Source: an uncultured delta proteobacterium
Lineage (GTDB): Bacteria; Myxococcota_A; Polyangia; Haliangiales; Haliangiaceae
DNA length: 35,290 nucleotides
Assembly (NCBI GenBank): GCA_900696455.1
Contig: CAADGB010000490.1
Location: 1-35,290 of the forward strand
Direction: 5' to 3'
In this document: one piece after another, positions 12,099 through 20,431 of the stretch
Layout: each line of letters opens with the position of its first letter
Position numbering within the stretch: position 1 is the first letter of the stretch
The notes under the pieces: model-generated
What the model saw: only the letters and a program-made list of their open reading frames with translations
Database searches by the model: none
Told to the model about the DNA's origin: nothing
Program-made: the position numbers and the translations under genes

Positions 12099-12256
12099 CA
12101 GCTCGCGTCCGCCACCCGCCCGCTCGCGTCCCGTCCCCCGCCCGCTCGCGTCCCGTCCCCCGCCCGCTCGCGTCCGTCACGCGCCCGCTCGCGTCCATCA
12201 CCCGTCGGCTCGCGTCCGTCACGCGCCCGCTCGCGTCCATCACCCGTCAACTCGCG
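12099..12256. repeat. 21/22-bp tandem repeat array, about 7.5 copies
   Basis: Consecutive units share the core GCTCGCGTCC (plus strand). There are five 21-bp units, two identical 22-bp units, and a final partial unit that runs into the 3' end of the hemerythrin gene. Within the array a 42-bp dimer (units ending GTCACGCGCC and ATCACCCGTC in turn) occurs twice. Read on the minus strand the units next to the gene encode a heptapeptide of the type V-T-D-A-S-G-R in the same frame as the hemerythrin ORF, after its stop codon. Repeats abut without spacers, so this is not CRISPR. Confidence 0.85.
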
Positions 12257-12801
12257 ATGCGAGCGGCGGCGTAGCGGTCGGCGAGGGTGTCGCCCAGCGC
12301 CTCGAGCCGGCGGGCGGCGTCGCCGTCGGCGGGGACGACGAGGTCGAGGGCGGCGAGGTCGTCGGCGCCGACGAGCTGCTCGGCCATCGGGTAGAGGACG
12401 TTGTTCTCCTTGTGGATGTGATCGGTGAGCAGGCGGACGTAGGCGGGCACGGCCCTGGCCAGGGCGACCAGGTCGGGGCCGACCAGGGGGCCCCGGCCGG
12501 CGGCGAGGTCGGCGAGCACCGCGACGTGGCCGCGGCCGACGTCGTGGTCGTGGCGCATGCAGCCGATGGGACCGGCGTCGCGGGGCAGGCCGGCCCGGAT
12601 CATGGCCTCGAACAGGTGGTCCTCCTCCTTGTGGTGGTGGACGCCATCGACGTACTCGCGCAGGTACGTGACGAACTGTCCGAGGATCGGACGTGGCGCC
12701 GGGTCGTCGACGACGTGGTAGGCCGCGAAGTCGTGGAGGGCGCCGAGCACGCGGCGGATGTGGACGTGCTCGGCGACGAGGGTGGTGAGGAGCTCGCTCA
12801 T
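12247..12801 (-). CDS. Hemerythrin-like (HHE domain) protein
   Basis: A 184-residue four-helix protein with the metal-ligand pattern of hemerythrin HHE domains: EHVHIRRVL (His12/14), HHHKEEDHLFE (His55-57 with Glu), RHDHDVGRGH (His84, 86, 92) and DHIHKENNVLYPMAE. Such domains bind a di-iron centre and act in oxygen, nitric oxide or redox sensing and in iron-centre repair (family knowledge). The start is placed at ATG 12801 (MSELLTTLVAEH), where family similarity begins; a longer frame reaches 12930 but adds only Arg/Pro-rich sequence. It diverges from the MbnP-like gene. Its TGA lies inside the first unit of the tandem repeat, at the triplet where another unit carries CGA. Confidence 0.85.
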   Translation of the reverse strand: MSELLTTLVAEHVHIRRVLGALHDFAAYHVVDDPAPRPILGQFVTYLREYVDGVHHHKEEDHLFEAMIRAGLPRDAGPIGCMRHDHDVGRGHVAVLADLAAGRGPLVGPDLVALARAVPAYVRLLTDHIHKENNVLYPMAEQLVGADDLAALDLVVPADGDAARRLEALGDTLADRYAAARIAS

Positions 12802-12916
12802 CGCCGGCCAGCCTGCCCGGGCGAAGCGGGCGCGACCTGATCCGGCGTCAAGTCGGCGCCGCGGTGCGCAATCCCACCGCATGGGGCGCGCCGCCGCCGG
12901 GACCAAGCTGCCGGGA

Positions 12917-12936
12917 GGTGCACGACGCACCGGAGG
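12917..12936 (+). promoter_or_regulatory. Small hairpin and strong Shine-Dalgarno before the MbnP-like gene
   Basis: GGTGC (12917-12921) and GCACC (12927-12931) form a 5-bp stem with a 5-nt loop directly abutting GGAGG (12932-12936), which sits 5 nt before ATG 12942. The SD fixes this start. The adjacent hairpin could modulate initiation; that part is inference. Confidence 0.4.
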
Positions 12937-12941
12937 ATCTC

Positions 12942-13760
12942 ATGCGTACGACCGGACGTACTCCCCGCCCCCTCGCCCTGGCCTGCCTCGGCGCGACCTC
13001 CCTGCTCGCCGGCCTCGTCGGCTGCGGCGACGACCACGATCACGGCGACGACGTCGACGCCCGTCCCGCCGACGCCGCGCCCGGCAGCGGCGCGGTGACC
13101 GTGGCCTTCGCCCACCGGGTCGGCGGCGACGCGGTGCTGATGGGCACCGACACGCCGTACCTGAACGCCGCCGGCGACGCCTTCGGCGTGACCGTGGTGC
13201 GTTACTTCGTCAGCGACGTCAGCCTCCACTTCGCCGACGGCTCGCGCTGGGACGCCCCCGGCCCTCGCTACGTCGACCACGAGCTGACCGCGACCCTGAC
13301 CCAGCTCCTGGCCAGCGACGTGCCGACCGGCGCCCTGGCCTCGGTGTCGTTCGTGATGGGGCTGCCGCCGGCGCTCAACACCAGCGGGCGCTTCACGGCC
13401 CCGCCCGAGTCGCTGATGGAGTGGCCGGAGATGATGGGCGGCGGCTACCACTACCTGAAGTTCGAGGGCCGCTACCTCAACGAGGCCGGCGAGCCGTTCC
13501 CGTACCGCGCCCACAGCGGCGGCCTCGACGGGGTCGACTACTCGTTCGCGGTCTCGCTCGACGCCAGCGGCCGCGCCGTCGAGGCCACCGGCACCACGCT
13601 CACCCTGGTCATGAACCTCGAGCAGTGGTTCACGGCGCCCCACACATGGGACCTCGACGACTACTTCAACGCCGCCCAGCCCGGCATCATGCGCAACGCC
13701 ACGGCCCAGGCCGAGCTCCAGGCCAACGGCGCCACCGTGTTCGCGCTGGGGGCGCCGTGA
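12942..13760 (+). CDS. MbnP-like copper-binding lipoprotein
   Basis: A 272-residue exported protein resembling the MbnP family (the 'metallo-mystery pair' partner of a di-haem enzyme). The lipoprotein signal RPLALACLGATSLLAGLVGCG places Cys28 at the mature N-terminus, followed by a metal-binding-looking DDHDHGDDVDA stretch. Family-like segments are VTVAFAHRVGGDAVLMGTDTPYLNAAGDAFGVTVVRYFVSDVSLHF, LPPALNTSGRFT and MEWPEMMGGGYHYLKFEGRY. In studied MbnP proteins the partner MbnH oxidises a Trp to kynurenine, completing a copper site; which Trp would serve here is not clear. A strong SD supports ATG 12942. Its TGA overlaps the GTG of the MbnH-like gene, so the two are co-translated. Confidence 0.78.
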   Translation: MRTTGRTPRPLALACLGATSLLAGLVGCGDDHDHGDDVDARPADAAPGSGAVTVAFAHRVGGDAVLMGTDTPYLNAAGDAFGVTVVRYFVSDVSLHFADGSRWDAPGPRYVDHELTATLTQLLASDVPTGALASVSFVMGLPPALNTSGRFTAPPESLMEWPEMMGGGYHYLKFEGRYLNEAGEPFPYRAHSGGLDGVDYSFAVSLDASGRAVEATGTTLTLVMNLEQWFTAPHTWDLDDYFNAAQPGIMRNATAQAELQANGATVFALGAP

Positions 13761-14737
13761 GCGGCGCGGGCCCGACGGCGGGCGCGTGGATCGGGGTCGC
13801 CCTGCTGGCGGTCGCGGCCTGCGCGACCGACGACGGCCCGCGCTCGGTCGATCACCTCATCCCGCGCGGCTTCCCGCCCATGGTCGTGCCCGACGACAAC
13901 CCGTCGACGGTCGAGGGCATCGCCCTCGGCCGCCAGCTCTACTACGACCAGCGGCTGTCGCCGCAGGGCAACCGGGCGTGCGCCGACTGCCACGATCAGG
14001 CGCGCGCCTTCACCAGCCCGACCGCGCCCGGCGTCCTGCCCCACATCAACCTGGCGTGGTCGCGCAACTTCCTGTGGGACGGCCGCTTCGAGGGCACGCT
14101 CGACGAGGCCATGATCATGGAGGTCGAGGAGTTCTTCGTCACCGACGTCGAGCGCCTGAAGCAGCCCGACCTCGAGGCGATGTTCGCGGCCGCGTTCGGC
14201 ACCCCCGAGGTGACGACCCACCGGGCGGCCTACGCCCTGGCCCAGTTCCAGCGCACGATGGTCTCCGGCGACTCGCCGTTCGATCGCTACGCCGACGGCG
14301 AGCTGACCGCGCTCGGCGCCGCCGAGCGCCGCGGCCTCGAGCTCTTCTACAGCGAGCAGGGTGAGTGCTTCCACTGCCACGCCACCCGGCTCCTCACCGA
14401 CAACCAGTTCCACAACATCGGCCTCGACGCCGCCGTCGCCGGCACCGGCCGCGGCGTGGTCACCGGGCGCGCCCTCGACGACGGGCGGTGGAAGACGCCG
14501 ACCCTGCGCAACGTGGCGATGACCGCGCCCTACATGCACGACGACCGCTTCGCCACCCTCGAGCAGGTCGTCGACTTCTACAGCGACCAGGTCGTCGACT
14601 CGCCCACGCTCTCGACCCTGGTCCCGGTCGGCGGCTACCGCCTCAGCGCCGACGAGAAGGCCGACCTCGTCGCCTTCCTGCGCGCGCTCACCGACGAGCG
14701 CTTCCTCGCCGATCCGGCGCTGGCGCCGCCGCCGTAG
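13757..14737 (+). CDS. MbnH-like di-haem cytochrome c peroxidase/MauG-family protein
   Basis: A 326-residue protein with two c-type haem motifs, CADCH (75-79) and CFHCH (204-208), on the bacterial di-haem peroxidase/MauG scaffold. Conserved family segments are IALGRQLYYDQRLSPQGNRACADCH, LAWSRNFLWDGRFEGTLDEA, and TPTLRNVAMTAPYMHDDRFATLEQVVDFY. The N-terminus has a hydrophobic stretch ending VAACAT, a probable lipobox with Cys22. The protein is only about 325 aa and pairs with an MbnP-like gene through a 4-bp GTGA overlap, so I favour the MbnH subfamily (post-translational oxidation of the partner) over a peroxide-scavenging CcpA. Activity is inferred. Confidence 0.85.
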   Translation: MSGAGPTAGAWIGVALLAVAACATDDGPRSVDHLIPRGFPPMVVPDDNPSTVEGIALGRQLYYDQRLSPQGNRACADCHDQARAFTSPTAPGVLPHINLAWSRNFLWDGRFEGTLDEAMIMEVEEFFVTDVERLKQPDLEAMFAAAFGTPEVTTHRAAYALAQFQRTMVSGDSPFDRYADGELTALGAAERRGLELFYSEQGECFHCHATRLLTDNQFHNIGLDAAVAGTGRGVVTGRALDDGRWKTPTLRNVAMTAPYMHDDRFATLEQVVDFYSDQVVDSPTLSTLVPVGGYRLSADEKADLVAFLRALTDERFLADPALAPPP

Positions 14738-17147: not shown

Positions 17148-17853
17148 CTAGCCCGGCGCCGGCGGCACCGGCCGGTCGCTGACGACGCGGCCGTCGACGA
17201 GCTCGACGATGCGGTCGCACTGGTCGGCGATGCGGGGGTCGTGGGTGACGACGATGAAGGTGGTGCCGAGCTCGCGGTTGAAGCGGCGCATGAGGGCGAA
17301 GACCTCGGCCGACGACGCGGTGTCGAGGTTGCCGGTGGGCTCGTCGGCGAGGACCAGCGGCGGGCGGTGGGCGAGGGCGCGGGCGATGGCAACGCGCTGC
17401 TGCTGGCCGCCGGAGAGGTCGGTGGCCTTGTAGTGCAGGCGGTCGGCGAGGCCGACGGCGCGCAGCATGGCCTCGGCGGCGGCGCGGGCGTCCGCCGTGG
17501 GCCGGCCGCGGTCGCCCCAGCTCGGCAGGAGCACGTTCTCGAGCGCGGTGAAGGCCGGCAGGAGGTGGTGGAACTGGAAGACGAAGCCGAGCATGCGGGC
17601 GCGCAGCGCGGTCAGGCCGCGCTCGTCGAGGGTCGAGGTGTCGTGGCCGCCGAGCACGATCGTGCCGGCGGTGGGGCGGTCGAGCAGGCCGATCAGGTTG
17701 AGCAGCGTGCTCTTGCCCGAGCCCGACGGGCCGATCAGCGCGGTCAGCTCGCCGGGGCCGATCGTGAGGTCGACGCCGGCCAGGGCCCGGGTCTTGACCG
17801 CGGCGCCGTACTCCTTGACGGCGCCCGCGACCACCAGCACCGGCGGCGGGGGC

Positions 17854-17861
<8 letters not shown>
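17148..17861 (-). CDS. LolD/MacB-type ABC exporter ATPase
   Basis: A 237-residue ATPase of the MacB/LolD/FtsE class. Walker [11 protein letters not shown]-loop [23 protein letters not shown], signature [15 protein letters not shown], Walker [14 protein letters not shown] and switch VVTHDPRI are all intact. [16 protein letters not shown] resembles LolD. Its ATG lies inside the 3' end of the permease gene (8-bp overlap), so the two are coupled. With the permease and membrane-fusion protein upstream it would drive a mechanotransmission exporter rather than import. LolD (lipoprotein release) versus MacB (peptide/antibiotic export) cannot be settled by this protein alone. Confidence 0.9.
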
Positions 17862-19074
<1,213 letters not shown>

Positions 19075-19117
19075 CAGCGCCTCGGCCGCGGGGGCAGGTG
19101 GGGCACGGGGCCGGGCA

Positions 19118-20326
19118 CTACCGCCGCTCCGTGCGCACGCGCGCGCCCGGGGCGAGGCGGCGGCCGTCGGGGAGGATGACCTCGACGCCCTCGGCCAGGC
19201 CGGACAGGACCTCCATGCTGCCCTCGCCGCGGATGCCGAGCTCGACGTCCTTGCGCACCACCCGGCCGCCCTCGACGGCGAGCACGTACGGGGTGGCGGT
19301 GGCCGCGCCCTGCACCGCCTCGCTGCGCACGGTCAGCGTGGCGGGGCGGGTGGCGACGGTCAGGTCGATCGACACCGTCATGTCGGGCTTGAGGTGCGGC
19401 GGCGGGGCCGGCACCGCCAGCCGGACCTCGACGCTGCCGCGGGCGGGATCGATCGCCGGCGCGATGTAGCTGACGGTGGCGTCGAACACGGCCTGGGGGT
19501 AGGCGTCGGCCGAGGCCTTGGCCGGCTGGCCCACCGCGATCCACGCCAGGTTGCGCTCGTCGGCCTGGAACACCAGCTCGTCCTGGGCGTCGGCGGCCAG
19601 GGTCATGAGCGTGCGCGAGGGCTGGACGACGTCGCCGGGCTCGACGGCGCGGGTCAGGACCTCGCCGCCCGACCGCGCGACGATGCGGGTCTGGGCCAGG
19701 CGCACGCGGGCGCCGGCGAGCTGGGCCTCGGCCTGGAGCTGCGCGGTGAGCGCGATGCGCGAGTCGGCGCCGGCCGGCGCCGCCGCCGCCTGCTGGGCCT
19801 CGGCGGCGGTCTTCTGGGCGCGGGCGATGGCGAGGGCGCGCTGCGCGTTCTCGAGCTCCACCGCCGGCACCGCCTTGCTGGCGACGAGCTGGCTGGTGCG
19901 CGCCAGCTCGGTCTCGGCGCGCTCGAGGTTGGTCTCGGCCTGGCGCAGGGCCTCGGTGGCGACGATGGCGCCGACCCGGCGGAGCTGCGCGACCCGGGCC
20001 TTGGCCTGGTTGACCGCGGCCTCGGCCTGGGCGACCGCCGCCCGCTCGGCGCCGTCGTCGAGCTGCACCAGCAGGTCGCCGGGCTCGACCCGCTGGCCCT
20101 CGGCCGCGCCCACCGCCACCACCAGCCCCGAGGTCTGGGCCGCGATCTGGACCCGGGTCGGCACCCGCACGCGCCCGCTGGCGACGATGTGCTGCTCGAG
20201 CGCCTGGCGGACGACCACGGTGGTCCGCACCAGCGGGCCGCGGGCGCGCACGACCCAGACCACCGCGACCACCAGCGCGAGGCCGACCGCGAGCCAGAGC
20301 GCGGGTCGGCGGAGCAGGCTCCTCAT
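19118..20326 (-). CDS. HlyD/MacA-type periplasmic membrane-fusion protein
   Basis: A 402-residue adaptor that would bridge the inner-membrane exporter to the outer membrane. The N-terminal anchor is PALWLAVGLALVVAVVWVVRARG. The lipoyl halves are VAAQTSG/VVAVGAAEGQRVEPGDLLVQLDDGAE and VLTRAVEPGDVVQPSRTLM. A long Ala/Gln/Glu-rich hairpin (AVAQAEAAVNQAKARVAQLRR to AQLQAEAQLAGARVRLAQ) forms the coiled coil between them. The membrane-proximal end shows KDVELGIRGEGSMEVLSGLAEGVEVILPDGRRLAPGARV. I place the start at ATG 20326 (MRSLLRR), because the longer frame adds only six residues. First gene of the export set; it may share a transcript with the upstream outer-membrane-type gene. Confidence 0.88.
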   Translation of the reverse strand: MRSLLRRPALWLAVGLALVVAVVWVVRARGPLVRTTVVVRQALEQHIVASGRVRVPTRVQIAAQTSGLVVAVGAAEGQRVEPGDLLVQLDDGAERAAVAQAEAAVNQAKARVAQLRRVGAIVATEALRQAETNLERAETELARTSQLVASKAVPAVELENAQRALAIARAQKTAAEAQQAAAAPAGADSRIALTAQLQAEAQLAGARVRLAQTRIVARSGGEVLTRAVEPGDVVQPSRTLMTLAADAQDELVFQADERNLAWIAVGQPAKASADAYPQAVFDATVSYIAPAIDPARGSVEVRLAVPAPPPHLKPDMTVSIDLTVATRPATLTVRSEAVQGAATATPYVLAVEGGRVVRKDVELGIRGEGSMEVLSGLAEGVEVILPDGRRLAPGARVRTERR

Positions 20327-20431
20327 CGATCCGCGATGTAGCACGGCGGCGGCCGCCGCGCGCGGCGACGCGAGCGCCGGCGCGGTCGAACCAGCCGCGG
20401 CCCGGGCGCGGGCGCGGCGCGTGTGAAGGAA

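Follow-up and report, generated by a model that had tools for sequence, protein, structure and literature searches.

The window analysed here, a 35,290-nucleotide stretch of DNA, carries a genuine gene pair of the known and widespread MbnP/MbnH system, on a divergent branch of it. We consider it probable, at roughly 60%, that the two products form a maturation couple in which the di-haem enzyme MbnH would convert W161 of its partner MbnP to kynurenine, giving a predicted copper site for copper handling in the envelope. The conservation of MbnP/MbnH pairs far beyond methanobactin producers has already been reported (PMC3621798). New here are the delineation of a subfamily that lacks the second WxW Trp, although this subfamily may already have been marked in earlier sequence-network work, its coexistence with a canonical pair within one genome, a multi-domain fusion, and a bufferin neighbour.

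Three genes were found, namely, a minus-strand hemerythrin gene, a divergent plus-strand MbnP gene, and an MbnH-like gene after the MbnP gene. Their features are as follows.

12247-12801, minus strand: hemerythrin HHE protein, 184 aa; ATG at 12801, stop at 12247-12249; PF01814
12942-13760, plus strand: MbnP-family lipoprotein of the MxWP-GGGYH subfamily, 272 aa; PF20243 and fold match to 7l6g
13023-13052, plus strand: lipobox Cys28 (LVG before C28) and His/Asp segment CGDDHDHGDD; from the sequence
13416-13469, plus strand: subfamily motif MEWPEMMGGGYHYLKFEG, residues 159-176; from joint alignments
13422-13424, plus strand: W161, candidate kynurenine precursor; aligned to the first Trp of WxW in 20/20 joint alignments
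13512-13514, plus strand: H191 of the HxG motif, candidate copper ligand; invariant in A2, aligned to canonical HxGSTGC
13626-13628, plus strand: W229, Trp typical of the subfamily and alternative candidate target of MbnH; invariant in A2, kept in L165
13689-13691, plus strand: M250, candidate copper ligand; invariant in A2, likely the canonical PGCM Met, with uncertain alignment there
13757-14737, plus strand: MbnH-like di-haem MauG-family lipoprotein, 326 aa; GTG start; CCP_MauG
13979-13993, plus strand: first haem motif, CADCH; from the sequence
14075-14077, plus strand: inter-haem Trp W107 (LWDG), equivalent of MauG Trp93; invariant in A3
14366-14380, plus strand: second haem motif, CFHCH; from the sequence
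14579-14581, plus strand: Tyr275, MauG-type axial Tyr at the bCcP Met-ligand position; aligned to the Met of 1iqc

The MbnP and MbnH-like reading frames share GTGA at 13757-13760, and the intergenic region at 12802-12941 contains a single short palindrome. Next to the pair, no regulator or operator that would respond to copper was identified. All of the features described in the initial annotation (the hemerythrin, MbnP, the MbnH-like gene, the GTGA overlap, and the GYHYLKFEG and DDHDHGDD segments) were recovered at the sequence level. The locus is not a product of chance, because the Pfam E-values were 2.4e-24 for MbnP, 7e-32 for CCP_MauG, and 4e-20 for Hemerythrin.

Family assignment and fold of the MbnP protein

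The lipoprotein encoded by the first gene of the pair belongs to the MbnP family and has the MbnP fold. The initial annotation had made its proposal depend on an MbnP-family match and on a candidate oxidised Trp; the former was present, with 86.7 bits to PF20243 (Pfam cut-off, 27). The equivalog model for WxW-type MbnP, TIGR04052, gave 19.6 bits versus a curated NCBIfam cut-off of 140. An AlphaFold model built from ten sequences (pLDDT, 86.7; pTM, 0.85) had only one clear match in the PDB, Methylosinus MbnP 7l6g, with a Z score of 15.4 over 204 residues at 3.1 A, and the runner-up was at a Z score of 5.9. When the PDB was searched by sequence with a profile of ten subfamily members, no MbnP chain was retrieved; the fold comparison alone retrieved one. 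The four-Cys pattern is absent from the window MbnP, in which the lipobox Cys is the sole Cys of the mature protein. The His-rich segment behind the lipid anchor recurs in MbnP lipoproteins of the window's family and was unseen in the few other lipoproteins sampled.

The subfamily motif and the retained tryptophan

The WxW motif, carried by 120 of the 154 MbnP sequences sampled, is replaced by MEWP in the window MbnP, in which the first Trp is retained and Glu stands instead of the second. The GYHYLKFEG segment corresponds to residues 168-176, and the pattern [ML]xWPxxxGGGYH is common to relatives in Myxococcota and Bacteroidota. Joint alignments were made 20 times, with the sampling varied and four MAFFT modes used, and all 800 comparisons placed W161 on the first of the two WxW Trp residues; a profile-profile alignment with hhalign likewise set it there. 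The candidate oxidised Trp is thus present in the alignment, and it is retained in 18 of the 19 subfamily domains listed.

The assignment of W161 to the second Trp of WxW was also considered, as hinted by WNWPEML in L030 and L031 (sequence at the motif, WNWPEMLGGGYH). This assignment was dropped in view of the 20 joint alignments and hhalign. It was also contradicted by the MxWP forms of L193 (MTWPHGFGF) and L196 (MTWPPPFGY), for which the alignment to L195, a WxW protein (MYWTWGTRY), needed no gaps and kept the first Trp. A third protein, L197 (MTWPHLFGGY), has one extra Gly relative to the L193/L196 form, and in the MbnH tree all three fall into a lineage outside the window clade.

The kynurenine of Methylosinus MbnP reportedly arises from the first Trp of WxW, and the copper site of that protein is said to consist of His, Met, solvent, and Kyn. 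The site geometry of the subfamily may differ from that of canonical MbnP, because the second Trp of WxW is gone and two residues are inserted before GYH.

In the proposed maturation, MbnP would be exported and anchored to the membrane as a lipoprotein, and MbnH, a lipoprotein with two c-haems, would reach a MauG-like high-valent di-haem state with peroxide or oxygen equivalents. MbnH would oxidise W161 of MbnP through inter-protein electron transfer, and the kynurenine, together with H191 and probably M250, would form a single Cu(I) site. The predicted physiological role of MbnP would be to buffer copper in the envelope or to hand it on. CorA and MopE are established cases of kynurenine-copper chemistry, with Kyn-x-His and a second His as the copper ligands (PMC3912023). 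These methanotroph systems (MopE/SACCP and CorA/CorB) resemble the window pair, with its predicted copper protein, in having a surface copper protein beside a di-haem enzyme, but the copper site derived from Trp by conversion to kynurenine is theirs and only predicted here; MopE and CorA are without marked sequence similarity to MbnP (PMC3621798).

The target of MbnH in the subfamily could instead be another residue, such as W229, or the product could be other than kynurenine, with a metal site unlike that of canonical MbnP. We consider this unlikely, but it is the most serious of the alternatives. W229 is conserved across the subfamily, the WxW motif has been rebuilt, and its Myxococcota members have an MbnH whose distal-haem loop is about 5 to 7 residues shorter than that of other MbnH. 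Moreover, in the subfamily member L165 (G498:C3), Val occupies the position of W161 (SFNVPAMLGGGYHY), while the neighbouring MbnH is intact and W229 is present. This member, the loss of the second Trp, the shorter loop, and the scores below the TIGR04052 and TIGR04039 cut-offs all count against the proposed maturation at W161, as does the lack of an identified copper-responsive regulator or operator beside the pair. However, W161 aligns with the known target Trp and is lost in a single listed domain, and H191, along with M250 in most subfamily domains, is conserved together with it; conversion of W161 to kynurenine remains our preferred reading. A related and similarly tentative idea is that the subfamily forms its metal site by a non-canonical modification, either of W161 without the second Trp or of W229, in which case the two pairs of one genome would run in parallel and make protein-derived metal sites of two kinds.

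A coherent two-phylum subfamily that retains the modifying enzyme can dispense with the second Trp of WxW, which NCBIfam uses to define these proteins, and the subfamily is thus a natural test of the residues needed by MbnH. In addition, a Myxococcota MbnP group (L178, L194, and L201) carries GMDHGxADGRQF, with His at the first-Trp position of WxW and the second Trp gone. An MbnH with two CxxCH motifs follows in this group, and the His of HxG also appears changed. Variants without the first Trp mark points at which the chemistry may have shifted.

The di-haem partner and its co-inheritance with MbnP

The MbnH-like protein matched CCP_MauG with 111.5 bits (cut-off, 25.6) and has a lipobox (VAA before C22). 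With TIGR04039, the MbnH model, it scored 205.4 bits, below the curated cut-off of 362.85, yet this was the best NCBIfam model; TIGR03791 gave 170 bits against a cut-off of 444. The family assignment made in the initial annotation was borne out by the Pfam MbnP and CCP_MauG matches and by the MbnP fold, but the pair differs from the standard metallo-mystery pair in the low scores of both proteins with the curated NCBIfam models, in the missing second Trp of WxW, and in the absent four-Cys pattern. The enzyme has the residues of the MauG/MbnH type, namely, both CxxCH motifs, the inter-haem Trp, and an axial Tyr replacing the peroxidase Met, and the axial position is Tyr in all partners of MxWP-type proteins whose sequence covers that region. 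Charge resonance in the bis-Fe(IV) state of MauG is supported by its inter-haem Trp93 (PMC6405878), and Tyr294 is an axial ligand of MauG according to a work cited there. The window enzyme is like MauG in these two residues and in the predicted use of a partner-protein Trp as the target, whereas its partner is MbnP and that of MauG is methylamine dehydrogenase. An AlphaFold model of MbnH had a mean pLDDT of 60 and was set aside.

Membership in the CCP_MauG superfamily and sequence matches to classical bacterial cytochrome c peroxidases would also suit an enzyme that is mainly a peroxide-detoxifying di-haem peroxidase, with MbnP as its electron donor or anchor. This explanation is improbable in view of the Tyr found at the axial position where peroxidases have a Met ligand, the closest PDB sequence, which is the MbnH-type di-heme enzyme 6e1c (E-value, 4e-42), and the near-strict pairing and natural fusion with MbnP described below.

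The two partners are co-inherited. MbnH lies directly downstream of MbnP in 146 of the 154 sampled MbnP loci, a count in which a few rows are partial copies of one tandem gene, and the exceptions are mostly short stretches. The window pair has this order with the GTGA overlap. The MbnP and MbnH tree distances were strongly correlated (Mantel r of 0.84; permuted maximum, 0.10), with the motif region cut from most rows of the MbnP tree. In G285, a single open reading frame of 1173 aa (L183:5432-8950, G285:C144) encodes three subfamily MbnP domains and a C-terminal CCP_MauG domain, a fusion that offers the reaction for study within one chain. Two tandem MbnH-like genes were observed behind some Bacteroidota MbnP genes (L140-L143, L156, and L158).

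Both trees were quick searches without bootstrap. In the MbnP tree, 16 proteins with the subfamily motif grouped together (SH-aLRT, 99) with the motif region excised; this region was not located in five of the 109 rows, none of them in the MxWP-GGGYH subfamily. Eight Myxococcota members, including the window, formed a clade in the MbnP tree (99) and in the MbnH tree (100). The nearest relatives of the window pair belong to the same genus and family, and the contig therefore does not look foreign.

The claim that the pair sits alone held within the window and not for the genome, which has a second, canonical pair at G000:C531. The MbnP of this pair scored 158.6 bits with PF20243 and carries MFWAWSSGYKF and the four-Cys pattern, and its MbnH exceeded the TIGR04039 cut-off with 464.7 bits. 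It is a metallo-mystery pair of the TIGR04052/TIGR04039 (MXAN_0977) type, which shares with the window pair the order of MbnP followed by MbnH and a His/Asp segment after the anchor; in contrast, the window pair lies far under both curated cut-offs and in a separate clade in both trees. Genomes of the same order as the window have one type of pair, the other type, or both.

Compared with MbnP/MbnH of Methylosinus trichosporium OB3b, the window pair is alike in the MbnP fold, the gene pairing, the di-haem MauG-like partner, and the first Trp of WxW. It differs in the lack of the second Trp and the four-Cys pattern, in the two-residue insert that leads to GGGYH, in the lipoprotein nature of both proteins, in the shorter distal loop of MbnH, and in the absence of adjacent methanobactin genes.

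Gene neighbourhood

No methanobactin-type gene was seen near the window pair, in agreement with the initial annotation. The draft genome of 554 contigs nevertheless has a single MbnB-superfamily match, located on another contig (C246) beside a BufA2-like peptide. An existence apart from methanobactin is the rule for these pairs and not a peculiarity of the window, as PF20243 exceeded its cut-off in 125 of 289 genomes from the class and in 77 of 296 genomes that sampled the phylum to which a Flavobacteriales relative belongs, consistent with the earlier report (PMC3621798).

The protein encoded by the minus-strand gene matched Hemerythrin (PF01814) with 73 bits (cut-off, 25.3). A joint iron, oxygen, or copper/iron redox function of the hemerythrin, MbnP, and MbnH is very improbable: they adjoin in the window and in just one other genome, G023 of the same genus, where the genes are co-directional and not divergent, no hemerythrin was found near the pair at the remaining subfamily loci that had several kilobases of flanking sequence, and the hemerythrin has no obvious signal peptide, whereas MbnP and MbnH are both lipoproteins. 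The iron role suggested earlier is thus unsupported, and the hemerythrin is probably an incidental neighbour outside the system.

A copper context was found in a relative, G029, in which an MbnP/MbnH variant pair adjoins BufA2 (62.3 bits; cut-off, 60) and BufB (356.8 bits; cut-off, 310) by the NCBIfam models. Bufferins chelate excess copper (PMC12452194), and this neighbourhood counts in favour of the maturation of a copper site by MbnH. The homologous bufferin locus of the window genome sits on another contig. In addition, the BufB/BufA2 loci at L185:3630-6224 (G029) and L203 (G000:C246) carry a divergent di-haem MauG-like enzyme.

Of the 16 loci sampled in the window's own family, 8 (L010, L011, L013, L014, L016, L018, L021, and L023) encode a small Cys-rich secreted protein immediately upstream of MbnP, which is missing in the window and in every other locus examined. 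This Cys-rich protein occurs with both canonical and variant pairs and has the motif CCCG..CGC.DCP or CCCPDPS.C.CHDHED. Elsewhere in the window, an ABC exporter set comprising an ATPase, a MacB/FtsX-type permease, and an HlyD/CusB-type membrane fusion protein is encoded on the minus strand at 17148-20344.
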